Assembly: GCF_002733955.1 (NCBI RefSeq)
Contig: NZ_NVXQ01000006.1
Location: 1 to 54,329, forward strand
Length of the DNA: 54,329 nt
Reading direction: 5' to 3'
Origin: Hoeflea sp.
GTDB taxonomy: Bacteria; Pseudomonadota; Alphaproteobacteria; Rhizobiales; Rhizobiaceae
A program made the translations under genes and the position numbers. Shown in pieces: positions 8,178-46,388 of this stretch; position 1 is the stretch's first letter; every line of letters begins with the position of its first letter. The notes under the pieces were generated by a model. That model did no database searches and was not told where the DNA came from. It was given only the letters and a program-made list of their open reading frames with translations.

Positions 8178-8825
8178 ATGGTCAAAAAGGAAAAAGCCAA
8201 GACATTGAACCTGGATGCAGGACCTGAGCATTCTTTGCTGGAAGGGCGGAGTGCATTCTTCGGTTTTTTGATGAAACGTCTCGGCAATCGGGCCGATGCG
8301 GAGGACGTGTTGCAAGAGTTTTCCATTCGGGTGCTCACTCGCAAAGATCAACTGCGCGAAGCAGACCGTATGGATGCTTGGCTCTATGCCATTTTGCGCT
8401 CGACCCTGAACGATCACTACCGGAGGTCGAAACGGCTGAACCGCTTGACCGACGCTGTCGCCCGCGAGCCCGCGGCGTGGATACAAGAGGCCCCCGAACA
8501 ATTGGGCAAACTTTGCACTTGCCCGGGTGGATTGATCTCGGATCTCCGCCCCACCGATGCCCAATTGATCCAGCGGGTCGACTTTGGTGAGGATGATCGC
8601 ATTGCTGTCGCTGCAGATTTGAAGATTAGCCGTAACGCGCTGGGCGTGCGCTTGCACCGGGCCCGTATGGCGCTACGCGAAGCACTCGTCGTACATTGCG
8701 GCACGTGTTGCGAAACTTCCCGCAACGACTGTTATTGCGCGCCAGAAGGCTGCGAGAACGAAGAACACGGCTCGAGTTGCGTTACAGAAATCAAGCCGTC
8801 CGACCATATCCGCCCAACCGTGTAA
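8178..8825 (+). CDS. CorE-like ECF sigma factor with CxC linker and cysteine-rich tail
   Basis: 215 residues. Region 2 spans about 22-85 (A-E-D-V-L-Q-E-F and D-A-W-L-Y-A-I-L-R). The linker holds C113-T-C115. Region 4 with its helix-turn-helix spans about 125-170. The tail carries C174-x2-C177-x7-C185-x-C187 plus C178, C192 and C201. A CxC motif in the linker and a C-terminal cysteine-rich domain are hallmarks of the CorE group of ECF sigma factors, which are controlled directly by metal binding instead of by an anti-sigma factor. Consistent with this, no anti-sigma gene is adjacent. The paralogue at 45729-46388 has the same cysteine spacing. Located just after the copper module; metal and targets are inferred. 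Confidence 0.85.
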   Translation: MVKKEKAKTLNLDAGPEHSLLEGRSAFFGFLMKRLGNRADAEDVLQEFSIRVLTRKDQLREADRMDAWLYAILRSTLNDHYRRSKRLNRLTDAVAREPAAWIQEAPEQLGKLCTCPGGLISDLRPTDAQLIQRVDFGEDDRIAVAADLKISRNALGVRLHRARMALREALVVHCGTCCETSRNDCYCAPEGCENEEHGSSCVTEIKPSDHIRPTV

Positions 8826-8891
8826 GAATAGTCGCTCTGCGACGTCTCCCTATGTGAACCTGCCCTTTGGGTGACAACGCAGGAGTATTCG

Positions 8892-9218
8892 ATGGGACAG
8901 AAGACAGAGGCTCGGATTCGGCAACGAGGCAGTTTGCGTGCGACCGATGCGGAACTATCTGCGCTTGTAAGCCAGATGGCGTGCCGATGTGCGAAATGCA
9001 CGAATTATGACGATGCACCCCTGGCACGGGCAATGTTTCAAAGCGTTGAGGAACGCGGCCAGACCTTGGACGCCGCTGCCGGATCGCTTGGGATCGATGT
9101 GGGGGACGGTGCCTATTTGCTGGCTGGTTTGCGCCAAGACGTTGCGGTCGATTTCGCGTTGACACTACTGACTGGTCGAAAACCGGACCTTCTGAACCGG
9201 CAGGAGGAGCCTGTCTGA
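8892..9218 (+). CDS. Small unknown protein with CxCxxC motif
   Basis: 108 residues from ATG 8892, preceded by AGGAG at 8881-8885. No family recognised. The only striking feature is C31-R-C33-A-K-C36, a possible metal or thiol site; the rest is mostly helical and soluble, with no signal peptide or membrane segment. It follows the CorE-like sigma factor by 66 bases in the same direction and so may be in its operon or be its target. It could be a metal sequestering protein or a modulator of the sigma factor; the sequence does not decide. Confidence 0.6.
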   Translation: MGQKTEARIRQRGSLRATDAELSALVSQMACRCAKCTNYDDAPLARAMFQSVEERGQTLDAAAGSLGIDVGDGAYLLAGLRQDVAVDFALTLLTGRKPDLLNRQEEPV

Positions 9219-9435
9219 TGTGCGCTCGAAACTCTCCCGCTAGAAGGCGCCTTCAAGGATGCTTCGGGCGCATGACGGCTTGTCCTTAAAGCTACAAGAG
9301 ACATTTTGGACCGCAATCGTCGCGGAGCGCCCCAAAAAGTAACGAAGTCCGGCTCGGATGCAGTGTGCCCTGTCCCCGCCCGCGCTGATAACGGTGGGGA
9401 AAACCACCGCCGCGAACTTGAAAAGGAAATTCCAC

Positions 9436-10134
9436 ATGCTCGCAAAAGACATCATGACAACGACGGTGATCTCGCTCTCATCCAATGAAACTGTTGAGGA
9501 GGCAGTGCATCTGATGCTCGCTCATCACGTCAGCGCCTTACCTGTGCTGGATGCTGAGGGAGAGGTGATCGGCCTCATTAGCGAGGGGGATCTGATGCGA
9601 AGGGTCCGCAATACGGGCGACGTACGCCGATCGTGGTGGCTCGAGATTTTCGCTCGAGCGTCTGAAAACGTCGAGGAATTCGTCAAACTGCGTAGTCAAC
9701 ACGTCGCGGACGTCATGACGCGAAAAGTCTTATCGGTAGATGAAGAAACGTCAGTCAGTGAGATTGCGAAACTCCTTGAGACACATCGAATCAAGCGCGT
9801 CCCGGTGTTGCGTGGAGGCCTGCTGGTCGGAATAGTGAGCCGCGCAAATCTGCTCCACGCCCTGTCCAGGGCTGACCAACGCGGACTTCCTGAGCCGTCA
9901 GACGATGATCGTGAATTGCGTATCAGAATTGACGCTGCGCTGAAGGAAGTGCCAGTCGCGTGGTCCAATCTCATTAACTATTCGGTTGAAAACGGAAAAG
10001 TATCCGTGAGTGGCTTGGTAGACAGTCGGGCAGAAGAAAACGCGATCCGTGTTGCCATCGAGAATGTGCAGGGAGTGCAAAATGTGCACCTGCAGTTGGG
10101 GCTTGCACCTACCTGGGCTTATTATGGGATCTGA
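9436..10134 (+). CDS. CBS-pair protein with C-terminal BON domain
   Basis: 232 residues from ATG 9436, with AAGGAAA upstream. Two CBS motifs cover residues 1-65 and about 93-150 (each with the A-L-P-V-L / R-V-P-V-L and G-x-I-S / G-I-V-S pattern). A BON domain fills 160-225 (E-L-R-I-R-I-D-A-A-L, then V-S-V-S-G-L-V). CBS pairs bind adenosine nucleotides as energy sensors; BON domains are small lipid- or ligand-binding folds. Such fusions are common in low-oxygen or stress clusters of alphaproteobacteria. No promoter motif was recognised in the 217 bases before it. Confidence 0.85.
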   Translation: MLAKDIMTTTVISLSSNETVEEAVHLMLAHHVSALPVLDAEGEVIGLISEGDLMRRVRNTGDVRRSWWLEIFARASENVEEFVKLRSQHVADVMTRKVLSVDEETSVSEIAKLLETHRIKRVPVLRGGLLVGIVSRANLLHALSRADQRGLPEPSDDDRELRIRIDAALKEVPVAWSNLINYSVENGKVSVSGLVDSRAEENAIRVAIENVQGVQNVHLQLGLAPTWAYYGI

Positions 10135-10232
10135 GAACGGGCCGTGTGCCGGCGCCAACTACAATCGAAGACGGGTGGGAGCTACAACCCGGTCCTGAAG
10201 ACGTCGGCGGTGTTTTTCTAAGGAGTGCCCAA

Positions 10233-10246
10233 TTGACCTGGATCAC
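10233..10246 (+). promoter_or_regulatory. Possible FNR/FixK-type box (one mismatch)
   Basis: TTGACCTGGATCAC resembles the TTGAT-n4-ATCAA consensus of FNR/Anr/FixK regulators, with the last base C instead of A. No gene begins nearby, the next being the Rieske gene a kilobase away, so it may be a relic or chance. A better match occurs at 46865-46878. Confidence 0.3.
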
Positions 10247-10795
10247 AAGAACGATCCTGCCTGAATTGTTTGCATGAAGAGACAGAAAAGGCGTCTCCTG
10301 TCGAAAGCTTGTCTGAACAATATTGCCTTTTTGTCACGGGCATGTTCGCTCTGGCACCGCAGTGCTGATGTTTGTGCTTTCGGCGGAATTCGACTTTCGT
10401 TTGAAAGATGGCGTCCCGTACCACAAGCTCTTGGGATTGTGCAGACTGGTGAGGCCGGTATTGCGGCGGTCAGTTCCGACCAAGACTGGGTCAATCATTG
10501 CCAGTCAATTCCTGGCCGCCATACTGCGCTTTTGCCGGTATGGGAAACGGTTCTTTGGGTTTGCATCATTGAATGAACCGTTTGAAATAGCCCCTGACTG
10601 GTTTGCGTCATCCGAACGTCTGGTTTGCTCCGTCCCCGCGCAAACCGCCTGTCGCAGGCCTAGCCGCTTTCAGAGGTCGGCAGCATTCCCCTTGTTACCG
10701 CTCTGAGAGCGGGCCAACGAACGATTGCGGTCAATCTGTAATGGTTTGCCACCAGCAACGTCTAAAGCGTGAAACCCACAGCAAAGGAGGTCATC

Positions 10796-11289: not shown

Positions 11290-11829
11290 ATGTCCACAAT
11301 TTGGGACGACAAAGCAAAATCGAGCAGACGTGATTTTCTCTATGTGGCGACCGGAACTGCGGGTGTAGTTGGTGTAGTTGCGGCGATGTGGCCATTTATC
11401 GATAGCCTAAACCCATCGGCCGACGTCTTAGGGCAAGCTAGTATTGAAGTATCGCTAGGGTCTATCGAGGTGGGACAGCGCGTGACTGTCAAATGGCGCG
11501 GCCAACCAATTTTTATCGACCGACGTACACCTTCCCAGATTGCTTCCGCCGTTGCAGATGATTCAGCTGAATTGCGCGACCCGCAAACGGACAGCGAAAG
11601 GGTCCAAGACGCTGAATGGTTAATCGTTGTTGGTATTTGCACGCATTTGGGGTGTGTGCCTTTAGGGCAACGGAAGGGTGATCCGCAAGGTCAGTGGGGT
11701 GGTTGGTTTTGTCCCTGTCACGGGTCTCATTATGATACATCCGGACGCATTCGAAAGGGTCCAGCGCCAAAAAACCTGGTTGTCCCGCCCTATCGATTGG
11801 CGTCATCCGGCACGGTTATCATTGGGTAG
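11290..11829 (+). CDS. petA: Orphan Rieske iron-sulfur protein (cytochrome bc1 PetA-type)
   Basis: 179 residues. S-R-R-D-F-L near residue 13 is a twin-arginine export motif followed by a single hydrophobic anchor. The Rieske cluster ligands are C117-T-H-L-G-C and C-P-C-H-G-S-H-Y-D near 141, as in ubiquinol-cytochrome c reductase iron-sulfur subunits (2Fe-2S, Cys2His2). The cytochrome b and c1 genes that normally follow are absent; an MBL-fold gene starts 23 bases downstream. It is thus a second, stand-alone Rieske protein, which might replace the housekeeping subunit under particular conditions or feed the cytochrome c genes downstream. The 250 bases before it are very AT-rich. Confidence 0.9.
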   Translation: MSTIWDDKAKSSRRDFLYVATGTAGVVGVVAAMWPFIDSLNPSADVLGQASIEVSLGSIEVGQRVTVKWRGQPIFIDRRTPSQIASAVADDSAELRDPQTDSERVQDAEWLIVVGICTHLGCVPLGQRKGDPQGQWGGWFCPCHGSHYDTSGRIRKGPAPKNLVVPPYRLASSGTVIIG

Positions 11830-11851
11830 CGTTGCATCGAAGAGGACCAAG

Positions 11852-13240
11852 ATGATGTCAGCAAACTATAAGAAATCGCTTCGTTTCCTCGGTGCTGCAG
11901 GGACCGTCACTGGCTCGCGGTATCTGGTCGAAGCGGGGAAGCGCCGCATTCTTGTCGATTGCGGATTGTTTCAAGGCTTCAAGTCTCTTCGAGATCGCAA
12001 TCGCAAACCGTTTCCGGTACGTCCCGCGTCGATCGACACCGTTCTTCTCACTCATGCTCATCTGGATCATTCCGGCTATCTTCCAGCACTTGTTCGTGCT
12101 GGCTTTTCCGGAAAGGTTCATTGTACTCAGGCTACCGAAGACCTGTGCGGTCTGATCCTGCCTGACAGCGGACATATCCAGGAAGAAGAGGCGCGCTACG
12201 CGAAACGCAAAGGATACGCCAAACATAAAAACCCGACCCCTCTTTATGCGCTGAACGATGCTAAAGCCGCACTCAAAAGACTGACCCCGCACCCTTTCGG
12301 ACGGCGGATCGATCTTGGTGACGGCATCACTGCCACTTTTATCCCTGCTGGCCATCTGCTTGGTGCCGCACAGATCCGGTTGGAACTTGGAGACAGAATT
12401 GTGCACTTCAGTGGCGACCTTGGTCGCCAAGCCGATCCGATGATGGCCCCCCCCGAGCCTTTTCACGGTGCAGATGTACTGGTTTGCGAGTCAACTTATG
12501 GCAACCGGGCTCACGCGAAAATCGACGCGGAAGCCGAACTCGCCCCATTTCTAAAGCGCACTTTTGCCCGCGGAGGTACGGTGCTGATTCCCGCTTTCGC
12601 TGTCGGACGCGCTCAGGGAATTCTCTATCATGTAGCCCGGCTGATGAAACGCGGTGAAATCCCCCACGTTCCGGTCTTCCTGAATAGTCCGATGTCGGTT
12701 AACGCCACTGCCATCTACCACCGTCACCACGAAGAGCATCATGTCACATGGGAAGATTGCAAGGCGATGTTCGATATCGCCGAGCGAGTTAACTCGGTCG
12801 AGCAATCAAAGGAACTGAACACCCGCCAGGGACCAATGATCATCGTTTCTGCCAGCGGAATGCTGACTGGAGGGCGCATTTTGCATCATATCGCAAGCTT
12901 CGGCGGCGACCGGCGCAACGCAATCTTGCTCTCAGGCTTTCAAGCGGGCGGTACGCGTGGCGCTGCGCTAGCCGAGGGTGCCAAGACGCTTAAAATGTTT
13001 GGGCGTGAATTCGCTATTGAAGCTGAAGTGGTTCAGTTAACTGCGTTCTCAGGCCACGCTGATGTAGGTGAAATACTTGACTGGATGCGCCACGCTGACC
13101 GTCCGCCTCAAATGACCTATCTGACGCACGGGGAACCATCCGCGTCGGATACCTTGCGATCGCGCGTTCAAGACGAACTGAGCTGGAAAGTGCGTGCCCC
13201 GGAACACCTAGAAACCGTCAATCTGGATCGACCCCGATGA
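11852..13240 (+). CDS. MBL-fold RNA-processing-type hydrolase (beta-CASP family)
   Basis: 462 residues from ATG 11852 with AGAGGA upstream; the longer open frame overlaps the Rieske gene and is not credible. The N-terminus begins F-L-G-A-A-G-T-V-T-G-S. The metal-binding signature T-H-A-H-L-D-H-S-G lies near residue 66, later V-C-E-S-T-Y-G-N-R and a beta-CASP insert, then S-A-S-G-M-L-T-G-G-R and F-S-G-H-A-D. This is the YSH1/CPSF-73-like group of zinc-dependent RNases. It overlaps the next gene by four bases (ATGA), as do the two after it, so the three are translationally coupled. An RNA-degrading role feeding nucleotide salvage is a context inference. Confidence 0.88.
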   Translation: MMSANYKKSLRFLGAAGTVTGSRYLVEAGKRRILVDCGLFQGFKSLRDRNRKPFPVRPASIDTVLLTHAHLDHSGYLPALVRAGFSGKVHCTQATEDLCGLILPDSGHIQEEEARYAKRKGYAKHKNPTPLYALNDAKAALKRLTPHPFGRRIDLGDGITATFIPAGHLLGAAQIRLELGDRIVHFSGDLGRQADPMMAPPEPFHGADVLVCESTYGNRAHAKIDAEAELAPFLKRTFARGGTVLIPAFAVGRAQGILYHVARLMKRGEIPHVPVFLNSPMSVNATAIYHRHHEEHHVTWEDCKAMFDIAERVNSVEQSKELNTRQGPMIIVSASGMLTGGRILHHIASFGGDRRNAILLSGFQAGGTRGAALAEGAKTLKMFGREFAIEAEVVQLTAFSGHADVGEILDWMRHADRPPQMTYLTHGEPSASDTLRSRVQDELSWKVRAPEHLETVNLDRPR

Positions 13241-14745
13241 CCAACACCCTGTCACTCATCCCATCGGGTATTGATACGTATCGTCAGGCAGTCGTTTACA
13301 TGAACGAGGATTGCCATATTTGCCGTGCGGAGGGCTTCTCAGCCCAAGCACGTATTCGTATTGATCTGAGTAACCGCTGGATAATCGCGACGTTGAATGT
13401 GGTGGCGCGAGGCGGGTGGTTGGCGGTCGACGAGGCTGGGCTCTCAACTTCGGGCTGGGAGGCGCTGGGCGCGCAGCTGGGTGCCCGCGGGCATTTTTCC
13501 CATGCCGACGTGCCTTTTTCTGCCTCGTCCATACGCGCCAAGGCTTACGGCCGCCGTCTTGATCAGAACAGCTTTTCTGCCATCATCCAAGACACACTCG
13601 ACAATCGGCTTTCGGATCTTCACCTTGCCGCTTTCATCACCTCTTGTGCAGGTGACCGCCTGAGTGAGAGCGAGACAGTAGCTTTGACCCGTGCCATGCA
13701 GACTGCAGGCGAAACGCTTGACTGGGGCGGAGCAGTGGTTCTTGATAAGCATTGCGTGGGCGGCCTGCCAGGAAATCGGACGACGCCCATTGTCGTTGCC
13801 ATAATAGCCGCAGCAGGGCAGCTTATTCCAAAAACCTCGAGCCGTGCGATTACGTCACCTGCCGGAACCGCAGATACGATGGAGGTAATGGCGCCCGTGG
13901 CGCTCGACGCCGACGCTTTGCGAAAGGTAGTAGAGCTCGAAGGTGGATGCATCGTATGGGGGGGCGGGTTGAACCTCAGTCCTGCCGATGATCATTTCAT
14001 TCGCATCGAACGGCCACTCGATTTCGATAGCACCGGACAAATGGTTGCGAGTGTGTTGTCCAAAAAGGCGGCAGTCGGCGCAACGCACGTGCTTATCGAC
14101 ATGCCGGTGGGTCCAACAGCCAAGGTCCGCTCAACCGAGGCCGCCGCGGCGCTGGGCGTAAGACTGAAATTGGTGGGAGCGGCAATCGGCCTCAATGTTA
14201 CGCTACATCAAAGTGACGGCTCCTCCCCGGTTGGACGTGGCATCGGCCCTTCGCTCGAGGCACGGGACGTGTTGGCTGTACTCAGGCGCGCGCAGGAAGC
14301 GCCGCTGGATTTGCGCGGACGCGCGCTAGATTTGGCAGGCAAACTCCTCGATCTAGCACCCGGTGCCCGCGCCGGGCGGGGCCGCAGAGAGGCAGAAGCG
14401 CTTCTTGATAGCGGGGCCGCAGAAGCTAAGTTCTTGGCTATCTGTACCGCGCAAGGTGGATTCCGCGAACCTGACGCTGCAGCGCATCGCATCGAAATAA
14501 CCGCAGGGGTATCGGGGCAACTTATCGCTATCGACAACCGCCTGATTGCCCGGATCGCAAAACTGGCCGGCGCACCCCGCCAAAAGAGCGCTGGTGTTCG
14601 GTTGCTTGCACGAACTGGCGACCAGGTCATCAAGGGGCAACCGCTCTATGAAATCCATGCCGAGACACCCGGCGAACTTGCTTATTCGGCCGGCTATGCG
14701 GAAAGCCACTCCAATGTCCTGACGCTTTCGGAGGCGGCAAAATGA
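13237..14745 (+). CDS. AMP/NMP phosphorylase-type member of the thymidine phosphorylase family
   Basis: 502 residues, longer than ordinary bacterial thymidine phosphorylase (about 440) and equal to archaeal AMP phosphorylase because of an extra ~85-residue N-terminal domain. The phosphate-binding loop reads K-H-C-V-G-G-L-P-G-N near residue 171, whereas nucleoside phosphorylases have K-H-S-T-G-G-V-G-D; the P-G-N form is the one seen in nucleoside-monophosphate phosphorylases. The likely reaction is NMP plus phosphate to base plus ribose 1,5-bisphosphate. Catalogues usually call it putative thymidine phosphorylase. Coupled by ATGA overlaps to the MBL hydrolase before it and the PRPP-synthetase-like gene after it. 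Confidence 0.85.
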   Translation: MTNTLSLIPSGIDTYRQAVVYMNEDCHICRAEGFSAQARIRIDLSNRWIIATLNVVARGGWLAVDEAGLSTSGWEALGAQLGARGHFSHADVPFSASSIRAKAYGRRLDQNSFSAIIQDTLDNRLSDLHLAAFITSCAGDRLSESETVALTRAMQTAGETLDWGGAVVLDKHCVGGLPGNRTTPIVVAIIAAAGQLIPKTSSRAITSPAGTADTMEVMAPVALDADALRKVVELEGGCIVWGGGLNLSPADDHFIRIERPLDFDSTGQMVASVLSKKAAVGATHVLIDMPVGPTAKVRSTEAAAALGVRLKLVGAAIGLNVTLHQSDGSSPVGRGIGPSLEARDVLAVLRRAQEAPLDLRGRALDLAGKLLDLAPGARAGRGRREAEALLDSGAAEAKFLAICTAQGGFREPDAAAHRIEITAGVSGQLIAIDNRLIARIAKLAGAPRQKSAGVRLLARTGDQVIKGQPLYEIHAETPGELAYSAGYAESHSNVLTLSEAAK

Positions 14746-15647
14746 TCCTGATCCCCTTCCCTGAGATGTTGTCGCTCGCGCAAGCGCTTGCACCAGAACT
14801 TGGCGGCGAGTTACGTCATCTCGACTGGCACCGTTTCCCCGATGGCGAGAGCCTCTTGACCCTGCCAGGTGATCTGGATGGAAGCGATATTGCGCTGCTC
14901 GCCACCCTCCGCGACCCTGACCGGTTGGCATTACCGCTGCGCTTTGCCGCGACAACAGCGCGGGAAATGGGCGCACGTCGTGTCGGGCTAATCGCGCCCT
15001 ATCTCGGTTACATGCGTCAGGATCGCCGATTTCAAGTTGGTCAAGCAGTCAGTGCGCAACTCTTCGCAAAGTTTCTCGGCGAAAGTTTCGATTGGCTGAT
15101 GACAGTCGATCCGCATCTACATCGTATCGCTCGGCTCGACGAAGTGTTTCCGATGCCAACGGTCCGTGTGGCCTCAGCTCCACTGCTCGCAGACTGGATC
15201 AGGGCGAACCTGCCTGACGCCGTTCTTTTAGGCCCCGATAGTGAAAGCCAGCAATGGGTGGCTGAGGTGGCGAGGCTGGCCGATCGGCCCTACGAAGTCT
15301 TGCGCAAGACTCGAACGGGCGACAAGAGTGTTGAAGTCAGTGTGCCGAGGAGTATCACGCTGAATCAGGGTACACCGGTTATCCTGGACGATATTGCCTC
15401 TTCGGGCCGGACCATTGTGCGCGCCATCGAACGGCTTGCTGCTACAGGCACCCGCCCACCGGTTTGCATCATCATTCACGCGGTATTTGCAGGCAGCGCA
15501 TATGAAGACATTCTTGCTGCGGGTGCCGCCCAAGTGGTTACTACCGACACCATACCGCACCCGTCAAACGGTGTATCGGTCGCAACATTAGTGGCGCACG
15601 AGATGCAATCGATACTTAGCACATCTATAACGGAGCAGAACTCTTGA
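14742..15647 (+). CDS. Ribose-phosphate pyrophosphokinase-like protein
   Basis: 301 residues, close to the usual ~315 for PRPP synthetase. The PRPP loop D-D-I-A-S-S-G-R-T lies near residue 216, the N-terminal G-E-L and F-P-D-G-E-S are present, and a K-T-R-T-G-D-K flexible-loop equivalent follows residue 190. The canonical D-x-H-x-x-Q-I-Q-G-F-F ribose-phosphate signature is replaced by D-P-H-L-H-R-I-A-R-L, so this is a divergent paralogue, not the housekeeping enzyme. Working behind an NMP phosphorylase it may rebuild PRPP from the released sugar phosphate; substrate unproven. Overlaps both neighbours by four bases. Confidence 0.85.
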   Translation: MILIPFPEMLSLAQALAPELGGELRHLDWHRFPDGESLLTLPGDLDGSDIALLATLRDPDRLALPLRFAATTAREMGARRVGLIAPYLGYMRQDRRFQVGQAVSAQLFAKFLGESFDWLMTVDPHLHRIARLDEVFPMPTVRVASAPLLADWIRANLPDAVLLGPDSESQQWVAEVARLADRPYEVLRKTRTGDKSVEVSVPRSITLNQGTPVILDDIASSGRTIVRAIERLAATGTRPPVCIIIHAVFAGSAYEDILAAGAAQVVTTDTIPHPSNGVSVATLVAHEMQSILSTSITEQNS

Positions 15648-21106: not shown

Positions 21107-23678
21107 TGCGTATTCCGAGGTGATGCGCCCACCGCTTCCGATTTGATGCGCCCACCCATTCCGATTTCATCCGCCCACCGATTCCGGGGTATCCGCCCAC
21201 CCCTGTGACGTGCTGCTGCGAGGCAATCTGTAACCGGCTACCTTCCGTTCTTTTGGCGCGAAGGAAGCCCGATGAAGAGATTGCCGATGCGGAAGATACG
21301 AGATGTTTTGCGACTGTCAGCCGAGGGTCTGTCGACCCGCCAGATCGCGGCGAGCCTGGCGATTGGACGCACAACCCTTCGGGGCTACATTGATCGCGCT
21401 ACTGAGTTGGGTCTGAGCTGGCCGCTGCCGCCCGAGATGTCGGATACGGACCTTGAGCATCGTCTGTTTGACCGTGGCTATCACAACCCCCAACGGATCG
21501 CGGCCCAGCCTGACTGGGCCTGTATCCACCGCGAACTGCGTCGCAAGGGCGTGACACTTTCGCTGCTGTGGGAGGAATATCGCGCCGACCACCCAGAGGG
21601 CTACGGCTACTCTCGGTTCTGCGAGCTTTACACGCGGTGGGAAGGCAAGCTGTCGCCAGTAATGCGGCAGCGGCATCCGGCGGGCGAGCGGCTGTTTGTC
21701 GATTACGCGGGGCACACGATCGATGTGATTGACCCCAAGACTGGCGAGGTGCGCACGGCACAGCTGTTCGTCGCGGCTCTCGGGGCCTCAAGCTATACCT
21801 TCGCGGAGGCGACCTGGACGCAATCACTGCCAGATTGGATTGCGAGCCATGTGCGTGCCTTTGGCTTCTTTGGCGGTGTGACGGCGCAGATCGTGTCCGA
21901 CAATCTGAAGGCCGGGGTCACGAAGGCCTGCTTCTACGACCCTGCGATCAACCGGACCTATGCGGACCTGGCCACGCATTACGACACGGCCGTGGTGCCG
22001 GCGCGACCGCGCAAACCTAAGGACAAAGCAAAAGTCGAGGGCGCGGTTTTGCTGGTTGAGCGTTGGATTCTGGCGCGGTTGCGCAATCGTCAATTCTTCA
22101 GCCTTGAAGAGGTGAATGCCGCAATCCGCCCGCTGTTCGGCCAGCTCAATGACAAGGCCTCGCGACATCTCGGCACCAGCCGACGGCAGCTGTTTGTGCA
22201 GTTGGACAAGCCGGCCCTGAAGCCGCTGCCGTTGGCACCCTACGTTTATGCTGAATGGAAGAAGTGCCGCGCCGGGCTCGATTACCACATTGCAATCGAC
22301 AAGCATTATTACTCGGTGCCCTTTCAGTTGCTGAAGAAAGAGCTGTGGGCCCGCATCACCTCCCGCACGATCGAAGTCTTTCATGTTGGGCAGCGTGTCG
22401 CCTCCCATGTGCGCACTTCCGGCAACGGGCAGCACTCCACACAGCACGACCACATGCCAGCACACCACAGGTTCCGCGAGGACTGGACACCGCAACGCAT
22501 CCAGGCGCAAGCCGCTCGTGTCGGACCGAACGTCGCGATCTTCGCCGAGGTAGTGATGCGTGAACGCAGGCACCCTGAACAGGGCTATCGCACCTGTCTC
22601 GGCGTGATCCGGTTGGCCGACAAGTTTGGGGCAGCCCGACTTGATGCAGCTTGCCGGCGCGCGCTTGAGATCAACGCCCGGTCCTACTCATCGCTCCAAT
22701 CCATTCTGAAGAATGGGCTGGAAAGCAAGCACCGCACCCGCAACACGGAGGAGCCTGCCATCAACCACCCCAACATCCGTGGTGCCGATTACTTCCATTG
22801 AAAGGAAACTCTATGCTCGACCACCCAACGCTTGATCGCCTGAAAGCCCTGCGGCTGGACGGTATGGCCGAAGCCCTTGCCGAACTACAGGCTCAGGATG
22901 CCGTTGCCGATCTCAGCCACGTTGAATGGCTTGGCCTGCTGGTTGACCGTGAGGTTGCCAGCCGAGAGACCAAGCGGTTTGAGGCCCGCATGCGCTCCGC
23001 CAGGCTGCGCCACGTGGGTGCTTGCCCGGAGGATGTCGATTACCGCGTGCGGCGCGGCCTCGACAAAGCGCTGTTCCAGAGCCTGCTCACGGGCAAATGG
23101 ATCACCGACAAGCGCAATCTGATCATCACCGGCCCTTGTGGGGTCGGCAAGACCTGGCTTGGCTGCGCCCTGGCGCAAGCGGCCTGCCGTGATGGCGTCA
23201 CCGTGGTTTACAAGCGGATGCCGCGCCTCTTCGAAGAGCTGGAACTGGCCCATGGCGACGGGCGCTTCCCCCGTTTGTTCCGCAGCATCACGAAAGCACA
23301 GCTGCTGATCCTGGATGATTGGGGGCCTGACCGATTGACGGCCACGCAGCGCCGCGACCTGATGGAGGTCGTCGAAGAACGGTATGGCCGCGCCGCGACC
23401 ATGATTACCAGCCAATTGCCCATCAAGGCGTGGCATGACGTCATCGGCGAACCGACCTTCGCAGATGCTATCCTCGATCGCATCGTCCATAACGCTTACC
23501 GCCTCGAACTCGAAGGGCAGTCATTGCGCAAAACCGTCGCCAAAATGGATGACGAAACGCCCCAAGCCCGATATCTGAAAAACGCTGCCTCACGGCAACA
23601 CGTCACAGGTGGGCGAATGCTCCGGAATAAGTGGGCGCATGTTGTCGGAATGAGTGGGCGGATGCTCCGGAATACGCA
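21107..23678 (+). mobile_element. Complete IS21-family insertion sequence (2572 bp)
   Basis: The ends are TGCGTATTCCG at 21107 and its inverse CGGAATACGCA ending at 23678. Inside each end are repeated blocks of the type TCCGCCCAC/GCGCCCAC (three or four left, three right), the multiple binding sites usual in IS21 elements. The inner TGTGACGTG block is also inverted on both sides. A 6-bp direct repeat AACACG flanks it, so the insertion is likely recent. It carries overlapping istA and istB. The target is an open frame that continues into an MFS-type remnant. Confidence 0.9.
21272..22801 (+). CDS. istA: IS21-family transposase IstA
   Basis: 509 residues. An N-terminal helix-turn-helix (L-S-T-R-Q-I-A-A-S-L-A-I-G-R-T-T-L) precedes a DDE integrase core with F-V-D-Y-A-G-H-T near 147 and S-D-N-L-K near 210, then K-A-K-V-E-G with the catalytic Glu. 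Preceded by GAAGGA. Overlaps istB by four bases (ATGA). Confidence 0.93.
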   Translation: MKRLPMRKIRDVLRLSAEGLSTRQIAASLAIGRTTLRGYIDRATELGLSWPLPPEMSDTDLEHRLFDRGYHNPQRIAAQPDWACIHRELRRKGVTLSLLWEEYRADHPEGYGYSRFCELYTRWEGKLSPVMRQRHPAGERLFVDYAGHTIDVIDPKTGEVRTAQLFVAALGASSYTFAEATWTQSLPDWIASHVRAFGFFGGVTAQIVSDNLKAGVTKACFYDPAINRTYADLATHYDTAVVPARPRKPKDKAKVEGAVLLVERWILARLRNRQFFSLEEVNAAIRPLFGQLNDKASRHLGTSRRQLFVQLDKPALKPLPLAPYVYAEWKKCRAGLDYHIAIDKHYYSVPFQLLKKELWARITSRTIEVFHVGQRVASHVRTSGNGQHSTQHDHMPAHHRFREDWTPQRIQAQAARVGPNVAIFAEVVMRERRHPEQGYRTCLGVIRLADKFGAARLDAACRRALEINARSYSSLQSILKNGLESKHRTRNTEEPAINHPNIRGADYFH

Positions 23679-23763
23679 AACACGTGACACTCGAACCCGT
23701 TATTACCAAATTCGGCCAGGTCATAAACACCCGGCGGGGTCTTTTTGCCGCGACATTTTTTGA
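22798..23763 (+). CDS. istB: IS21-family helper ATPase IstB, reading through the element's end
   Basis: An AAA+ ATPase with Walker A G-P-C-G-V-G-K-T-W near residue 118 and Walker B L-L-I-L-D-D-W-G. Typical IstB proteins have about 245-260 residues; here the frame lacks a stop, runs through the right terminal repeats and crosses the boundary at 23678, giving 321 residues with the last 28 encoded by host DNA. The real stop may have been lost by mutation, or the family member normally extends into the end repeats. ATPase motifs are intact, so it may still function. Confidence 0.88.
   Translation: MKGNSMLDHPTLDRLKALRLDGMAEALAELQAQDAVADLSHVEWLGLLVDREVASRETKRFEARMRSARLRHVGACPEDVDYRVRRGLDKALFQSLLTGKWITDKRNLIITGPCGVGKTWLGCALAQAACRDGVTVVYKRMPRLFEELELAHGDGRFPRLFRSITKAQLLILDDWGPDRLTATQRRDLMEVVEERYGRAATMITSQLPIKAWHDVIGEPTFADAILDRIVHNAYRLELEGQSLRKTVAKMDDETPQARYLKNAASRQHVTGGRMLRNKWAHVVGMSGRMLRNTQTRDTRTRYYQIRPGHKHPAGSFCRDIF
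23679..23684. repeat. Right copy of 6-bp IS21 target-site duplication
   Basis: AACACG directly after the element's right end, matching 21101-21106. Confidence 0.8.
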
Positions 23764-26601: not shown

Positions 26602-27641
26602 ATCAACAACCAGAATCAGACCGCCACCCGTCTTCCATGAATGTTTGCGGCCTGAGTGGTGCCGAACAGAACAGGAAAACCGGAACCGACAGCCCGGACA
26701 CTCGCGGTCCGCTTTCGAAATCGGTGTCTGCCACCGTGACATCCTCGATCGTTGGTTATTGAGCGTCTTGACGTGAATCGAATCCATGGCTGCTTGCTAA
26801 CTGAAGCTCGATGGCTCAAGTTTGGTCAATAGTGTGAAGCCGCTCGCGGATACTACCCACATGGGCACCACTCGCTCATTGCAAACAAATCCAACAGGCA
26901 TGGATGGCGGCGCAAGTTGGTCCAGCTCCCGTGCCAGTGCCAAGACCAGATCTCTATTGCCTTATCCGACGGGATACCCGCAGGCGCTATAAATCACTTG
27001 AAGCCAACGCACCTCAGTCGTTCATCCCTATTCGTGATTTTGAGAGCCATGCGAACCGAGCTAAAACCTCTCGTTCTTGGTTCTGCAATCGTTAGCGCTC
27101 CCATGGATTGGGAAAGAACACAGCAATACAGCCGCTGCAAATTGCGAAATGCGGCTTGCGCTGCCCACAGCTTGCTCTGGCTACAGGGCCGCCTCCGTAT
27201 TCATGACCTATCAATTCTCGTTATCAAAAACTCCTGATCAGTGCACCAAAAGATCGGCCTCCTTGTCCAGCCGGGAAAAACGAGCCGTGAACGGCGCCCC
27301 GACGGTGAGGGCGGACCGGATATCTTTATCTTTGGATTAGACGTCTGCCGAGCTCAAAGACTACCGCCATGATTGGCCAATCAGCTGCCTCTGCTGCACG
27401 CATGAGTGCCAGCATGTACATGTTCCTCAGCTACCCGGATGAAATTCGACAGACGAATCCCTGCACGTCATGTGAGATGTAGAGCGGTCCAAACCACCGA
27501 AGAGCTCGTGAGCCGTTGGTGTCGAAGGCATTCTATCTTCGGGGAGACCTATCGCCCCCGAATTGTAATGCTTACCGGCACTGCGCGTCTACAGAGGCAG
27601 AAAACGCCCAAAAAGCCGAGACGAAAACTGGAGGTCAAATC
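26602..27641 (+). other. 1-kb region without a recognisable gene
   Basis: Short overlapping frames on both strands, none with a credible start, codon pattern or family resemblance. Probably decayed coding DNA next to the binding-protein remnant. The last part holds the leader of the DUF5676 gene with GGAGGT at 27631-27636. No FNR-type or sigma-54 site was seen. Confidence 0.5.
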
Positions 27642-29889: not shown

Positions 29890-30445
29890 ATGTCAGATAG
29901 CGCCGTCCTGACACTCAACGCCGGCTCATCCAGTCTGAAGTTCGCGATCTTTAGCAATGTCGAACGGCCTCGCCGGCTCTGGTCGGGCGCGATTGAGCGC
30001 ATCGGACTGCCGGGCGCCCGGTTTCGACTTTCGGATGCCCGAGGCGCGGTTTTTCGGGAAGAGACCGGAACCATCGCCGACCATGATACCGCTCTGAAAC
30101 GGCTGCTCCTCGCCATTGAACATGAGGCAAGCGGAGTCAAACTGGTTGCCGTCGGTCACCGGATTGCCCATGGCGGACCTGACTGCGACCTTGGGTGGGG
30201 TCGACCGTTTGGTGTTTACCGGCGGCATAGGTGCCAATGCGCCGCGGGTTCGGGCCGGGATTTGCGACCGCCTCGGCTATCTCGGCATTGAGCTGAACAA
30301 ATCCGCAAATCTTCGCGGCGATCTGGTGATTTCGACCGGGTCAGTGGGTGTTACGGTCGAGATTCGTCAGATTGATGAGGAAGCAATAATCGCTGGCCAT
30401 GCCCACCAATTCATGGCCAGCCAACCGATGGCGCGGGAGGCATGA
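29890..30445 (+). pseudogene. ackA: Acetate kinase with large internal deletion
   Basis: Residues 1-100 match the AckA N-terminus (V-L-T-L-N-A-G-S-S-S-L-K-F near the start, G-H-R-I-A-H-G-G-P-D near 98). At about 30180 the frame is lost and another frame continues from L-G-G-V-D-R-L-V-F-T-G-G-I-G-A-N-A to the normal C-terminus at 30445. Only ~185 of about 390 codons remain; the central catalytic domain is gone and the two parts are out of frame. The upstream DUF3141 and downstream phosphotransacetylase are intact, so the loss is specific to the acetyl-phosphate-to-acetate step. Confidence 0.88.
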
Positions 30446-30448
30446 GCA

Positions 30449-32322: not shown

Positions 32323-32684
32323 GCATCCCAACAAGGAAACTCTATTAACTGCAGAAGTGACATCTTAATCACAAAGCTGCGCTTGAATACAATGTTGCGT
32401 TCGGAGCAGACCGACAGACGGCACTCGGGAGCAATCCGACGACACCGGGAGGTCAGTATTCGGAACTGCGAGCCAATATCTGTAATATCCGAAGCGGACC
32501 TGCGTCTAGATCCCTGCAACACGTCTCCAAGGGAATTGGCAAGCATCAGGTGCCAGCGTTGAATTCCTTGGCTCCTGCAGTCCGCGATTACTGAAAATCA
32601 AAGCTCTAGATGTCGGCTGTAGAGGCCGAAACACCATTGACGAGATAGCCAAACGCCCAAGGTCGAAGACCGCCAAAGGAACAG
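32323..32684 (+). other. 360-base intergenic region
   Basis: No gene recognised. It separates fabI from the CPH-type ATPase and presumably holds the latter's promoter; no CueR dyad or FNR-like site was found. AAAGGAACAG before 32685 is the ribosome-binding site. Confidence 0.4.
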
Positions 32685-38478: not shown

Positions 38479-38516
38479 GCATGAGAAAACCGCCCTACCG
38501 GGGAAATGAGCAAGCC

Positions 38517-42645: not shown

Positions 42646-43971
42646 TCAGTTTTTCGCTACTGCCTCCAGCGCCGTCCAGCGCTTCAGGTATATCCGTTCG
42701 TAGATGAACACCGCTGAAATCGCGGCACCTGCATATAGAACGATCATAGGATCGGATCCCAATTTCATTGTCGTGAATGCTGCCAGAACAAATCCGTCGA
42801 AGGCAATCGCACAAAGCAGTACAGCCCCATGCGCGCCAATCTCGTGGCGCAAATGCCGAAACACGCCCCAATGCACCAGCATGTCCATTATCAAGTAAAA
42901 GAATGCCCCTAGCGATGCGATCCGGCTCAGATCAAAAAACACCGCAAGCGCCGAAGCAAGAACGACCGTGTAGACCAGAGTGTGGCTGCGGATCGGGCCC
43001 GACATACCAAAATGGCTGTGAGGTATCATTTTCATATCCGTCAGCATTGCGAGCATGCGCGACACCGCAAATACACTCGCCAACACGCCTGACGCGGTGG
43101 CGACAGCTGCCAAGACGACTGTCAAGTAAAAGCCAGACTGGCCCAATGCCGGCGATGCGGCTTCGGCAAGTGAGTAATCCTTGGCGGCAACAATTTGATC
43201 AATCGACAGATTGGACCCGACCGCAAAAGCGACAAGCAGATACACTACCGTGCAAATGGCAATCGATATCATGATGGTGCGGCCTACATTGCGATGCGGG
43301 TCGGTGATTTCTGCACCACTGTTGGTGATAGTTGTGAAGCCTTTGAAGGCCAGTATCGACAGGGCTACAGACGCAATGAACCCGGTCAAATTAAAGCCGC
43401 TATTGGTACTGCTTGCAGCTGCGAACGTGAAGCCGCCCGACCAAAGCGCGACGATGCCAAAGAGCGCAATTCCTCCGATCTTGATGACCGCCATGATGAT
43501 CGACAAAAGACCGACAGACCGGTTGCCCGAAGCATTCACGATAAAGGCAAACAGGATGACTCCGACCGCCAATACTGGCACCAGCGGGCCCCCTGCGATA
43601 TCAAAGGGTCGCAATACATAGGTTGCAAATGTCCGCGCCACGAGGCTTTCCGAAATGACCATGGACAGCGCCATCAACAATGCCGCAGCTGCGGCGATGG
43701 CGCCTGGCCCGTAGGCTTTCTGCAAGATCATCGCAATCCCGCCAGAGGACGGCCAGGCATTCGACATCTTGATGTAACTGTACGCGCTGAAGGACGTCAC
43801 GATGGCACCAAATACGAAAGACAGAGCAAAATAGGGTCCGGCCAATTGCGCAATTTGCCCCGTCAGCGCAAAAATACCCGCGCCGATCATCACGCCGGTT
43901 CCCATCCCAACGGCACCGGCCAAACTGATTGAGCCCTTGTTCAGGGTGTCATCACCATGTGAATGTTTCAA
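42646..43971 (-). CDS. APC-family amino acid/polyamine permease
   Basis: 441 residues and twelve hydrophobic segments. The helix-1 motif G-M-I-G-A-G-I-F-type loop is seen as G-V-M-I-G-A-G-I-F-A-L near 26, and the family helix F-K-G-F-T-T-I-T-N-S-G-A-E near 215. TTG start at 43971 (no in-frame ATG close by), with AGAAAGAG upstream. Imports an amino acid or amine by proton or sodium coupling; specificity cannot be read. Confidence 0.85.
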   Translation of the reverse strand: MKHSHGDDTLNKGSISLAGAVGMGTGVMIGAGIFALTGQIAQLAGPYFALSFVFGAIVTSFSAYSYIKMSNAWPSSGGIAMILQKAYGPGAIAAAAALLMALSMVISESLVARTFATYVLRPFDIAGGPLVPVLAVGVILFAFIVNASGNRSVGLLSIIMAVIKIGGIALFGIVALWSGGFTFAAASSTNSGFNLTGFIASVALSILAFKGFTTITNSGAEITDPHRNVGRTIMISIAICTVVYLLVAFAVGSNLSIDQIVAAKDYSLAEAASPALGQSGFYLTVVLAAVATASGVLASVFAVSRMLAMLTDMKMIPHSHFGMSGPIRSHTLVYTVVLASALAVFFDLSRIASLGAFFYLIMDMLVHWGVFRHLRHEIGAHGAVLLCAIAFDGFVLAAFTTMKLGSDPMIVLYAGAAISAVFIYERIYLKRWTALEAVAKN

Positions 43972-44088
43972 AACTTTGTCTCTTTCTCAATAGCTTGAAC
44001 GATGCTCAACGGATCAGCAGCAGTGGACCACAAAGACAGCGTGCCAAACGGGGGCAGAAACGTTCTCTTGCGGCCTCCGAGGAACGGG

Positions 44089-44823
44089 TCAAGGCAGCGC
44101 CACCATCTTGTGCCCCTGACCTTCTATCACGAATTCTCCTTTGGCCATTATCACCGCCTCATCAATGATCCGTATCTTTGGCTCGGCACCGGTAGAAACG
44201 AAGAGCGTGCCGGTGCCACGAATTTTGGTCAACTGGAAGTGTTCCAAGGACAGTTCAGAGACCTGGATCTCAACATCGGCAAGGTTGATCGCCGCGATCT
44301 TGCCGTCACCGCTACCCGCGATAAAATTTTACGGTCACCCGATAGATCTATCGCGTGCAACTCGACTGCAACGGCAAAGCTCCGCATACACCGTCGGCGT
44401 AAAACTCATCAGGTCGATTACGGATGTTCCATTGCCCGAGCGATGGATCGCGACAGCACAGCGCTCATCGGAGGAAATGGCGGTTTGATGCACTGCTCCG
44501 GGGACTTCAATCCGCCACACAATCCCGCCAGATGTCGCATCCGGAACGCTGAGAATGCTGATGCCCGCATCCGAGGGTCCGATCGGTTTATCCTCGGCCA
44601 GTGAATTGTGAGCAGCATGCTCTATCTCGGACACACTCTCGGTTTTGGTCGGTTCCTGAATCGCCTCAAGTCCGATGATCCGCTTTCCTGCTTCGCCGCC
44701 TTCGGCATTGACCATGAGCACCGAAAAGGCGCTATTTTCCGGTGCAATCACGACAGGCTGAGCTGTCGTGATTGCAATCGAAAGCATCAACGCCGCCAAT
44801 ATGGCGACATTCAATACTATCAA
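44089..44823 (-). pseudogene. YncE/YVTN-type beta-propeller protein, frameshifted
   Basis: ATG 44823 gives a signal-peptide-like helix, a linker, then a propeller blade (G-I-S-I-L-S-V-P...I-E-V-P-G-A-V-H-Q-T-A-I-S-S-D-E-R and S-V-I-D-L). Around 44340 the meaningful reading moves to another frame and continues G-S-G-D-G-K-I-A-A-I-N, then E-P-K-I-R-I-I-D-E-A-V, to TGA at 44089-44091. About 245 codons remain against some 320 or more in relatives, so part is also missing. It is the last gene of the sigma-factor operon, with start overlapping the 49-residue membrane peptide (ATGA). Confidence 0.6.
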
Positions 44824-44969
44824 GAGGAAATTCCCTCCGATGTTCTCCGTAAATCATGGACTGCGCTTTCATCGGCGTCCAACGCGACTAATTCGGAGCG
44901 CTGCCGGATCACTGAGGCCGCGAATATCAGCAGCATGCCGGATGCAAGCCCTACCAGGATGAGTGTCAT
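44820..44969 (-). CDS. 49-residue single-span membrane peptide
   Basis: Starts at ATG 44967-44969 behind AGGAGAAAC. One hydrophobic helix (L-I-L-V-G-L-A-S-G-M-L-L-I-F-A-A) and a charged tail. Stop overlaps the propeller gene start. No family recognised; small size and coupling suggest an accessory membrane component. Confidence 0.6.
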   Translation of the reverse strand: MTLILVGLASGMLLIFAASVIRQRSELVALDADESAVHDLRRTSEGISS

Positions 44970-45022
44970 TTTGTTTCTCCTCATAAGACGAAATTCTGCA
45001 ACATACACCGGGATGTGGCGGA

Positions 45023-45220
45023 TCAGCTCGCGCCGCAGCATCCGCCGGTTTTGGTGCCTGTGCCATGGTCAACCTTTACGACTGCAGGCGGGTCCATACT
45101 TGGCACAGCAACATTGGCCTCTTGAGTTTTGGACGTAGACCCGCAGCAGCAGCCTTTCGGTGATTGATCGGGCGTTACGCCGGTCGGGATGATCTTTGTT
45201 TGCATTTTGGTTTTCTCCAT
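45023..45220 (-). CDS. Small cysteine-rich, metallothionein-like protein
   Basis: 65 residues (59 if the ATG at 45205 is used). Soluble, low in aromatic residues, with two cysteine clusters: G-C-C-C-G-S near the middle and G-G-C-C-G-A-S at the very end, and one histidine between. Such spacing suits binding of soft metals such as Cu+ or Ag+. It lies in the operon of the CorE-like sigma factor, after the region-4-only protein. GGAG precedes the start. No family recognised; metal storage or delivery is inferred. Confidence 0.6.
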   Translation of the reverse strand: MEKTKMQTKIIPTGVTPDQSPKGCCCGSTSKTQEANVAVPSMDPPAVVKVDHGTGTKTGGCCGAS

Positions 45221-45285
45221 GAAAAATTGTCTCCTGCAAGTATAGACGCCTGCGCCGCGCCGGCGTTACGCAGTCCCAGACACCC

Positions 45286-45594
45286 TCAGAGGTCTGCCCA
45301 GTTCGACAGAGTGCAATCGCAGCCTGACAGGCCATGCTTTGGGCAGATCCGGGTCATCTCTGCGAACCTCTCCTTCAGAGCCTGTCTTCCACATCCAAGT
45401 CGATCGTCTATCGTACTCTCGCTGAGCCCCAAGCTGTGCGCGACGCCCTCCCTCCGCTCTCCATCGACATCGATGCGCCGAACAATATTGGCCTGTTCAA
45501 GCGGAAGCGTGGACAGGAGCATGTCGATGCAGTCACGTATCAGCTCGTCGAGTTCAGTGTCACTTGTCGGATCAGAACTAGGCTGACGTTTCAC
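45286..45594 (-). CDS. Region-4-only sigma-like DNA-binding protein with cysteine tail
   Basis: 102 residues from GTG 45594 with AAGGA 7 bases before it. Aligns with the second half of the CorE-like sigma factors: C22 takes the place of the second cysteine of the linker CTC, then a sigma-4 helix-turn-helix (G-V-A-H-S-L-G-L-S-E-S-T-I) and a tail C84-P-K-H87-G-L-S-G-C92-D-C94. So the tail keeps C-x7-C-x-C but has His in place of one Cys. It lacks region 2 and cannot bind core polymerase or -10 DNA alone, so it may be a metal-dependent modulator or competitor of the full sigma upstream. Lies 134 bases after that gene. Confidence 0.7.
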   Translation of the reverse strand: MKRQPSSDPTSDTELDELIRDCIDMLLSTLPLEQANIVRRIDVDGERREGVAHSLGLSESTIDDRLGCGRQALKERFAEMTRICPKHGLSGCDCTLSNWADL

Positions 45595-45728
45595 ATGCTC
45601 ATTCCTTGATACGCTTTTCAGAGTTGTACACGTCGACACTCCTGATTGAGCTCCGCCGATTACCAGGTGGAGTTTCCAGTTATCTGTGGCTTAGGCCTGT
45701 CATTCGACCTCCCAAGCATGCCCACCCT

Positions 45729-46388
45729 CTAGATGAGAAGACGCGCAACGGGGTTGGACATTACACTCGGTGGGGCATCGAACTGGCGAGGTGTCGACGA
45801 TGGCCGATCGCCCCGAGAGTGATCGCAGTCACAAATCATGAAGCCGCCTTCCCCACAAACTTTGCAGACCTCGGCTATTTTTTTCCTCAACGCTGTTCTC
45901 GCGCGATGGACCCGAACTCCCAAAGAGTTCGAGTTCAGCCCCAGTTCAGTTGCGACAGCCGTGCGCGGCTCGTCTCGTAGATCAATCCGAGCCAACAATT
46001 CTGCCTGAGAGGGCTGAAGCATCTTCATCGCCGCCGCGATGCAGGTACACGCGGGCTCCGCAACATCGATGTCCTCCTGCTGGGTCACCTTGGTCTCGAT
46101 CGCATAGGCCTCTGCGCCGCGATTTCGCGCCGCTTGCCGCCGGTAGTGATCCGTCAAGGTGTGTTTCAGGGTGACGCCGAGCCAGGCATCCAGCCTCTCA
46201 TCGTCCTCAATCTGGGCATGGTGGCGCAGTACCTTTACGCAGAAATCTTGAAAGACATCCTCGGCATCCTGTGGCCTGCTCAATCGCCGGCGAAGAAAGC
46301 CGAGGAACCGGTTGCGGGATTCGACGAGTTTTGCCTCAACGACTCGGCGCGAGATCGTTGTTGCACTGTTGTTTTGTTCAGCAAACAT
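45729..46388 (-). CDS. CorE-like ECF sigma factor, second copy
   Basis: 219 residues from ATG 46388, with AAAGGAACAGGA immediately upstream (an earlier GTG is possible). Region 2 at about 25-88 (A-E-D-V-F-Q-D-F, D-A-W-L-G-V-T-L-K-H), linker C114-T-C116, region 4 at about 125-170, and tail C175-x2-C178-x7-C186-x-C188. The tail spacing equals that of the factor at 8178-8825. No anti-sigma gene is adjacent. CorE-type factors are switched by metal binding to these cysteines; copper is the likely ligand given the neighbours. Second gene of a minus-strand operon. Confidence 0.85.
   Translation of the reverse strand: MFAEQNNSATTISRRVVEAKLVESRNRFLGFLRRRLSRPQDAEDVFQDFCVKVLRHHAQIEDDERLDAWLGVTLKHTLTDHYRRQAARNRGAEAYAIETKVTQQEDIDVAEPACTCIAAAMKMLQPSQAELLARIDLRDEPRTAVATELGLNSNSLGVRVHRARTALRKKIAEVCKVCGEGGFMICDCDHSRGDRPSSTPRQFDAPPSVMSNPVARLLI

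Follow-up and report, generated by a model that had tools for sequence, protein, structure and literature searches.

CorE-type sigma factors and the Hoeflea locus

Among sigma factors of the extracytoplasmic function (ECF) type, CorE and CorE2 of Myxococcus xanthus (former group ECF44, now within ECF238) are the closest described counterparts of two factors, here named sigma1 and sigma2, encoded in a stretch of 54,329 nucleotides from Hoeflea sp. (contig NZ_NVXQ01000006.1, positions 1-54329; hereafter the window), which accounts for 1.1% of a genome of 4.86 Mb. CorE and CorE2 are, per the accessible part of a review, the only experimentally studied members of the class, and their switching off has been attributed to the state of the metal alone. 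Four tail cysteines were invariant across 21 factors (CorE residues 181, 184, 192, and 194, spaced CxxC-x7-CxC), with no anti-sigma gene linked (PMC3107203).

Sigma1 and sigma2 share with CorE and CorE2 the CxC motif of the linker, a Cys-rich tail with the four invariant cysteines identically spaced, and a similar geometry between the AAC of the promoter and the G of its -10 element. They differ in that neither has a Cys at the place of Cys189, described in the available text as the main residue for Cu activation of CorE, and in that the tail of sigma1 is extended to seven Cys; moreover, a small neighboring protein (P4), Fnr/FixK-type boxes, and a promoter common to the island occur here and find no mention for CorE in the accessible text (PMC3107203). 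As for OrbS from Burkholderia cenocepacia, it is likewise an ECF sigma factor with an on-board C-terminal Cys metal sensor; however, from the part of the source available, it is an iron-starvation sigma, inhibited by iron, with a different Cys spacing (PMC9023288).

The sigma pair belongs to what is known; what is new here is P4, along with the promoter of the island and the Fnr/FixK-type boxes. Class I and zinc anti-sigma factors are small proteins encoded near a sigma gene that limit the sigma factor, and P4 would be a small sigma-limiting protein in the same position; unlike them, it has no anti-sigma domain match, is homologous to the sigma4 domain, and mostly stands behind a sigma-type promoter. 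The low-oxygen-activated (lxa) locus of B. cenocepacia is reportedly a large island of stress genes under low-oxygen control; compared by description, it differs from the window, where CorE-like sigmas and Cu-ATPases are inside the island.

Support at the sequence level comes from the family features of the factors, the promoter, the boxes, and the homology and linkage of P4; from these, we infer the use of the promoter by the sigma factors, oxygen control, the identity of the metal, and the function of P4, in a joint model that we consider probable. Sigma1 and sigma2 would sense metal via their own cysteine tails and would activate one island-specific promoter class, T-GTAAYG-N15-CGTC-T; because their units sit behind Fnr/FixK-type boxes, they would be produced at low oxygen, and they would be turned on by metal, presumably copper in view of the gene content of the island. 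Low oxygen and metal together would then be the gate for the island, with its Cu-ATPases and its Rieske/cytochrome, phosphoketolase/acetate, and PPK2 genes. In the clade of sigma1 (clade A), P4 would be a first gene behind the promoter, with the sigma4 fold and the CxC kept, and with no sigma region 2, no tail, and no DNA-binding charge; it would work as a feedback brake through competition, either at the metal-loaded tail or at RNA polymerase.

Cysteine signature and clades of the two factors

The reading frame proposed for sigma1 was found to be exact, with C113-T-C115 in the linker and C174-x2-C177-x7-C185-x-C187 in the tail, and sigma2 has the cysteines assigned to it (C114-T-C116 and C175-x2-C178-x7-C186-x-C188); its strand, not named before, is the minus one, and a plus-strand location was rejected because the frame there is interrupted by a stop. 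The divergence of the two factors outside the shared cysteines was also confirmed, with an identity of 42% over 171 residues. Their CorE-like features hold as well: both are above cut-off for Pfam Sigma70_r2 and for TIGR02937 (ECF superfamily), and both have the linker CxC and a tail spaced as CorE 181/184/192/194, the assignment being made by domains and cysteine signature, with CorE compared through its published residue positions. The Pfam match to sigma4 was weak, with 22 bits for sigma2 (cut-off 25.7) and none listed for sigma1. The tail of sigma1 has in addition Cys178, Cys192, and Cys201, which are missing from sigma2 and had been omitted from the original prediction.

From the loci examined, 108 CorE-like factors were taken, both window factors included; they were chosen by similarity, and many are near-identical. 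CxxC-x7-CxC occurred in 106 of them and, because it is invariant also in the 21 published factors, the identical spacing is a family signature; as a sign of a special pair it was rejected. The comparison indicates that the cysteines shared by sigma1 and sigma2 are homologous, and not there by chance. Relatives occur in organisms on the 2011 CorE list (R. litoralis, P. zucineum, and Roseovarius sp. 217), a match at the organism level only. Searching the genome itself with sigma1 returned sigma1, sigma2, and two weak matches (30% and 35% identity); the closest named relatives found are from Hoeflea sp. BAL378 for sigma1 (99% identity) and from a plasmid of Hoeflea sp. IMCC20628 for sigma2 (89%).

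The occurrence of two such factors in one island is nothing out of the ordinary: within the stretches examined of the best 80 of 223 confirmed loci among genome contigs, two or three distinct CorE-like open reading frames (ORFs) were present on 22 of 67 contigs, and the accessible 2011 list has two factors in Roseovarius sp. TM1035 and three in Roseovarius sp. 217, with close gene numbers (PMC3107203). In a tree of 95 proteins (midpoint root; the program warned of long branches), sigma1 grouped with clade A (72 rows) and sigma2 with clade B2 (7 rows), both supported and distinct from each other, with clade B accounting for 16 rows. By this tree, the two factors come from different old clades and are not recent twins.

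The number of tail cysteines varies within the clade-A type (n = 84), with seven in 65 tails, five in 13, and six, eight, or nine in the remainder. In CorE2, the metal specificity (Cd/Zn) is set by Cys174, which directly follows another Cys and is absent from CorE, as described in the accessible text (PMC9023288); a Cys at this place is present in sigma1 and absent from sigma2. Given the different clades and tails (7 vs 4 Cys), the two factors may differ in their metal response.

P4, a small sigma4-like protein downstream of sigma1

P4 (P0004) had no match in Pfam, NCBIfam, or PHROGs, hence no known anti-sigma domain. It has no sigma region 2, its alignment to sigma factors being confined to the linker and sigma4, and it also lacks the cysteine tail and the positive DNA-contact charge. 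Comparison of the P4 profile with the sigma profile gave 69 ungapped columns over the linker CxC and sigma4, with the cysteines in register (E 4e-6, probability 87). The alignment used for profile, model, and comparison (A2) held 29 of 34 distinct P4 and omitted L007, L080, L045, L026, and L076, the last four for odd starts, truncation, or degeneration, so that conservation in it is somewhat flattered. The AlphaFold model of P4 had a mean predicted local distance difference test (pLDDT) score of 80, above 90 for residues 41-90, and Foldseek against the PDB placed ECF sigma4 domains on top, with a probability near 1. In the last 25 residues of the domain, the mean charge was -0.9 in P4, compared with +3.9 for the sigma4 domains encoded at the same loci; the median ratio of nonsynonymous to synonymous substitution rates (dN/dS) was 0.30 vs 0.13 (50 loci, 334 pairs); both comparisons took one sigma per multi-sigma locus, sometimes other than the neighbor of P4. 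Of the 51 distinct P4, 47 have retained the CxC.

P4 is tightly linked to sigma factors of clade A. A trimmed-domain profile retrieved 66 non-sigma ORFs in 86 sequences, reaching sigma factors weakly (best 7e-5), and in 65 of these ORFs the domain started 88-187 bp past the frame of a CorE-like sigma with the same orientation. Among genome contig loci, P4 was present after 59 of the 67 full-length clade-A sigmas with room downstream, after none of 12 short-tail A factors, and after none of 17 of clade B; in other sources, the figures were 4/4 for A, 0/1 for short A, 0/3 for B, and 0/2 for B2. In one family (295 genomes; 10-16 candidates scored per genome), 15 genomes had a sigma match at E 1e-20. 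P4 was found in 10 genomes, all of which belong to these 15, the other five having weaker sigma matches, and 12 of 13 copies adjoined a sigma gene (counted by eye). A class-wide search of 385 genomes, limited to the best 12 candidates or fewer in each, was positive for the genome of the window alone.

An exact GTAAYG site lies at most 190 nt upstream of 38 of the 51 distinct P4 genes, vs 0.55 expected in random stretches. Because of this promoter and of the homology to the linker-CxC/sigma4 part, P4 has the appearance of a sigma target that mimics half of the sigma factor, and it may act as a feedback regulator, a brake on sigma1. As a tentative mechanism, which we would put somewhat below an even chance, P4 would be a stand-alone, non-DNA-binding copy of the linker-CxC/sigma4 half of the metal-sensing sigma, made from the sigma's own promoter, that would swap with the sigma linker at the metal-loaded tail (or block the RNA polymerase flap), thus ending the response. 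Searches of an open-access library, whose coverage leaves out most subscription papers, listed no paper on P4, a protein that has no name to search by.

The island promoter

The promoter class is defined by GTAAYG-N15-CGTCT, with T-GTAAYG-N15-CGTC-T as its fuller form. The scan set comprised L005-L089 and the window (86 sequences, 1.36 Mb), with many sequences nearly identical; in it, exact matches to GTAACG-N15-CGTC numbered 96 at spacing 15 vs 0-3 at each other spacing from 12 to 19. Among 21 clade-B sigma genes, 20 have this motif upstream. With Y in place of C, 191 sites were found outside the window and L005 (Hoeflea sp. IMCC20628), corresponding to 77 distinct ones, of which 67 have T before and 60 have T after. 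AAC and the -10 G are 17 nt apart, compared with 16-18 nt for the published CorE motif in the accessible text (PMC3107203).

The sites are clustered. Of five exact copies of GTAAYG-N15-CGTCT in the genome, four are inside the window. Promoter counts covered 38 genomes (13 with P4, 20 without, and five Rhizobiaceae found through sigma2); counted by eye, the P4-bearing genomes had 65 sites, of which 51 were no more than 45 kb from a P4 gene, and the P4-less genomes had 20. A weight matrix, which includes the sister-strain copy of the 10738 site, scored the window sites at 10738, 27565, 45740 (-), 45245 (-), and 32482 from 26.6 to 18.4, the next best reaching 9.1. The genes after the sites (196 occurrences, redundant loci) included those for DUF5676 (43), P4 (42), cyclopropane fatty acid synthase (21), clade-B sigma (20), P-type ATPase (8), and patatin (6), with 28 having no reference match. 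In the window, the Rieske gene that follows the 10738 site precedes genes for MBL, NMP (nucleoside monophosphate) phosphorylase-like, phosphoribosyl pyrophosphate (PRPP) synthase-like, cytochrome c, and Cu-ATPase proteins, and the DUF5676-like ORF behind the 27565 site precedes DUF3141, the N-part of AckA, and PTA-like and FabI-like genes. The degenerate GTAAGA variant that lies between sigma1 and P4 is found also in L073, L077, and a Dinoroseobacter shibae plasmid.

Residues V157, R158, H160, R161, and R163, which we take to be part of the recognition helix of sigma4, are invariant in all 35 selected sigma rows of an alignment (A3) in which B2 is represented by sigma2 only and B by three members; this is in line with one common promoter class. 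Since these residues are invariant and one promoter type accompanies all three clades, two sensors feeding one regulon would fit better than two regulons. No paper on this promoter was listed in searches of the open-access library, most subscription papers being outside its coverage.

Fnr/FixK-type boxes

Fnr/FixK-type proteins bind boxes of the kind TTGAYNNNNRTCAA. With at most one mismatch, such a box precedes 19 of the 42 clade-A genes in a non-redundant set, vs 1.56 in shuffles, and in 16 of the 19 it lies 83-102 bp ahead of the start; the other genes scanned (one short-tail A, seven B, and two B2) had no box immediately ahead of them. The box of the sigma2 unit is exact in Hoeflea sp. IMCC20628 and in three of five further Rhizobiaceae loci. 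In Croceicoccus, the gene of a protein with a cyclic-nucleotide-binding domain follows two tandem CorE-like sigmas (sigma classes assigned by eye).

Surroundings of sigma2

P0003, a protein with sigma4 and a three-Cys tail, aligned best with the sigma4 plus tail of clade-B factors, having one linker Cys and three of the four tail Cys. A frameshift and a stop interrupt its ortholog in Hoeflea sp. IMCC20628; in the sister strain (genome G386), the frame is open, both linker Cys are kept, and 7 of 102 residues differ. P0003 is probably a decaying third sigma factor, the relic of a clade-B sigma, with a working sigma4-tail protein in the window as the less favored alternative. Mini-partners of the same kind for both sigmas were considered and rejected: P0003 is more likely a relic from a tandem, because intact tandems of sigma2-like and clade-B sigmas exist in genomes G968 and G855 (two tandem CorE-like sigmas were also recognized by eye in Croceicoccus).

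On the other side of sigma2, the ORF at 46440-46811 had a sub-threshold match to Sigma_reg_N, an anti-sigma-type N-terminal domain (13.5 bits, cut-off 26.3, E 0.09). The view that anti-sigma genes are lacking can be retained only in part: no anti-sigma family was above the Pfam cut-off in the window ORFs scanned, and yet there are the conserved P4 after sigma1, the sigma4-tail relic after sigma2, and this sub-threshold match before it. A YncE-like gene (44000-44824, minus strand) is split over two frames; its counterpart in Hoeflea IMCC20628 has 352 amino acids.

Table 1. Sigma genes, associated small genes, promoters, and boxes in the window
Feature	Position	Strand	Remarks
Fnr/FixK-type box	8080..8093	+	TTGACTTGGGTCAT, 1 mismatch; centre 91 bp ahead of sigma1
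sigma1, ECF sigma factor, clade A	8178..8825	+	linker C113xC115; tail with 7 Cys (174, 177, 178, 185, 187, 192, 201)
Degenerate promoter GTAAGA-N15-CGTC	8822..8846	+	2 mismatches; between sigma1 and P0004
P0004 (P4), CxC + sigma4-like protein	8892..9218	+	108 residues; next gene downstream of sigma1
Promoter GTAATG-N15-CGTC	10738..10762	+	next recognised gene Rieske at 11290, >500 bp off
Promoter GTAATG-N15-CGTC	27565..27589	+	upstream of ORF 46% identical to DUF5676 protein
Promoter-like GTAATA-N15-CGTC	32482..32506	+	before Cu P-type ATPase (32685), then PPK2, phosphoketolase; matrix score 18.4
Small Cys-rich ORF (CCC ... CC)	45023..45220	-	65 amino acids; predicted sigma target
Promoter GTAACG-N15-CGTC	45245..45269	-	25 bp ahead of Cys-rich ORF; GTAATG form in L005, G386
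P0003, sigma4 + 3-Cys tail, without sigma region 2	45286..45594	-	102 amino acids from likely GTG start; frame open from 45639
sigma2, ECF sigma factor, clade B2	45729..46388	-	linker C114xC116; tail with 4 Cys (175, 178, 186, 188)
Promoter-like GTAATG-N15-CGTC	45740..45764	-	upstream of P0003; in G386, not conserved in L005
Small ORF	46440..46811	-	123 amino acids; upstream of sigma2 on same strand; conserved in L005
Fnr/FixK-type box, palindromic	46865..46878	-	0 mismatches; before first small gene of sigma2 unit

Weighing the joint model and its alternatives

Several observations count against the joint model or its parts. The tail in the structure model of sigma1 was too poor for metal placement (mean pLDDT 67). 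The reversed control pattern occurred six times in the genome (vs five promoter copies), 61 times (vs 65) in the 13 P4-bearing genomes, and 84 times (vs 20) in the 20 P4-less ones; being equally frequent, it leaves the promoter case to clustering and position, and not to totals, which in the five Rhizobiaceae were 0, 1, 2, 3, and 5 (sum 11). No exact GTAAYG-form site is directly upstream of any of 87 non-B sigma genes, implying that clade A is not autoregulated through this promoter, and a MAFFT alignment of upstream regions revealed no promoter before clade-A sigmas. The P4 of the window is one of the 13 of 51 genes with no exact site, its sites carrying two mismatches; the CxC is missing from 4 of 51 distinct P4, the Foldseek E-values were weak (best 0.046, none below 0.001), and the P4 profile found no sigma factor among PDB sequences. 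As for the boxes, none (at most one mismatch) was present in 23 of 42 clade-A upstream regions, and their total across the window (8, shuffle mean 6.1) is not above chance, so that their weight lies in position and conservation. Finally, for the 102-kb plasmid of D. shibae, in which a "sigma 70 factor" was named as a potential regulator, the accessible text reports unchanged Cu, Co, and Zn resistance and a slight increase for Ag, and it mentions no anoxic conditions for these tests (PMC9426580); with Cu resistance unchanged, a simple copper-resistance role is not supported. A plasmid similar to it, pDFL36-06, has a CorE-like sigma followed by P4, with no box at one mismatch in the 330 bp ahead of the sigma.

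For the two sigma factors, one alternative is the graded or dual-metal response of the original prediction, in which each sensor would have its own metal or threshold. The differing clades and tails speak for it, sigma1 having the Cys at the CorE2 specificity place and sigma2 the four invariant Cys only; however, neither has the Cys corresponding to Cys189 of CorE, the ATPases of the island are of the Cu type, and one promoter class goes with all clades, so we regard this reading as unlikely, though deserving some weight. We find it improbable that the island is a mosaic with redundant parts, in which the sigmas would derive from different segments, sigma1 doing the work and sigma2 decaying with its broken neighbors: P0003 as a truncated clade-B relic with a broken ortholog, the split YncE-like gene, and the insertion sequence (IS) elements of the window would suit it, whereas sigma2 itself is intact, 89% identical in Hoeflea IMCC20628 and different at only 5 of 219 residues in the sister strain, and the Fnr box of its unit and the promoter of the Cys-rich ORF are kept.

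As regards P4, it is doubtful that it helps the sigma, as co-activator or as metal chaperone, rather than acting as a brake: the conserved CxC and the tight linkage would fit metal delivery equally well, but P4 resembles a first target of the sigma, is shaped like sigma4, and has lost the DNA-contact charge, and the combination of promoter, shape, and lost charge suggests competition. That P4 is a truncated, neutrally drifting pseudogene is very hard to believe, even though P0003 demonstrates that such relics occur here and a stop divides P4 in L074 and L075, because it persists after 59 of 67 full-length clade-A sigmas, has a promoter ahead, and shows a median dN/dS of 0.30 over the 334 pairs.

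Gene content of the island and of related plasmids

The metal island recognized in the original prediction is a copper island, with three P-type ATPases above the Cu-ATPase cut-off of TIGR01511. Positions 4582-7781 on the minus strand, transcribed away from sigma1, encode a regulator of the MerR type and a Cu-ATPase that has two HMA domains; the regulator would, therefore, be a second, classical metal switch next to the sigma system. At 29890-30291 (plus strand), the acetate kinase gene looks truncated because its match spans positions 2-95 of the 392 in the profile; PTA-like and FabI-like genes adjoin it. A row of MBL/beta-CASP RNase-like, NMP/thymidine phosphorylase-like, and PRPP synthase-like genes (11678-15647, plus strand), possibly for RNA-to-PRPP salvage, recurs in Roseovarius and Paracoccus plasmids (L006 and L007). 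Mobile elements in the window comprise an IS21-type pair and two more transposase genes (21272-23763, 48069-48800, and 48930-50075).

In the Roseovarius mucosus plasmid pSMR3-1 (L006, 5340-10386), CorE-like sigma genes flank the arginine deiminase pathway and a type II GAPDH, so that energy metabolism is in the island once more. In a Phenylobacterium zucineum plasmid (L088, 3353-9364), a clade-B sigma is located amid genes of universal stress proteins, not copper genes.

Significance

If the proposed function is true, P4 would be a dedicated feedback partner for CorE-type factors, for which none was supposed. With a conserved sigma4-like partner, a promoter that is defined, and an oxygen gate that is likely, the mechanism can be tested directly in plasmids of marine Rhodobacterales, and these plasmids are suggested to couple copper defence with low-oxygen energy metabolism.

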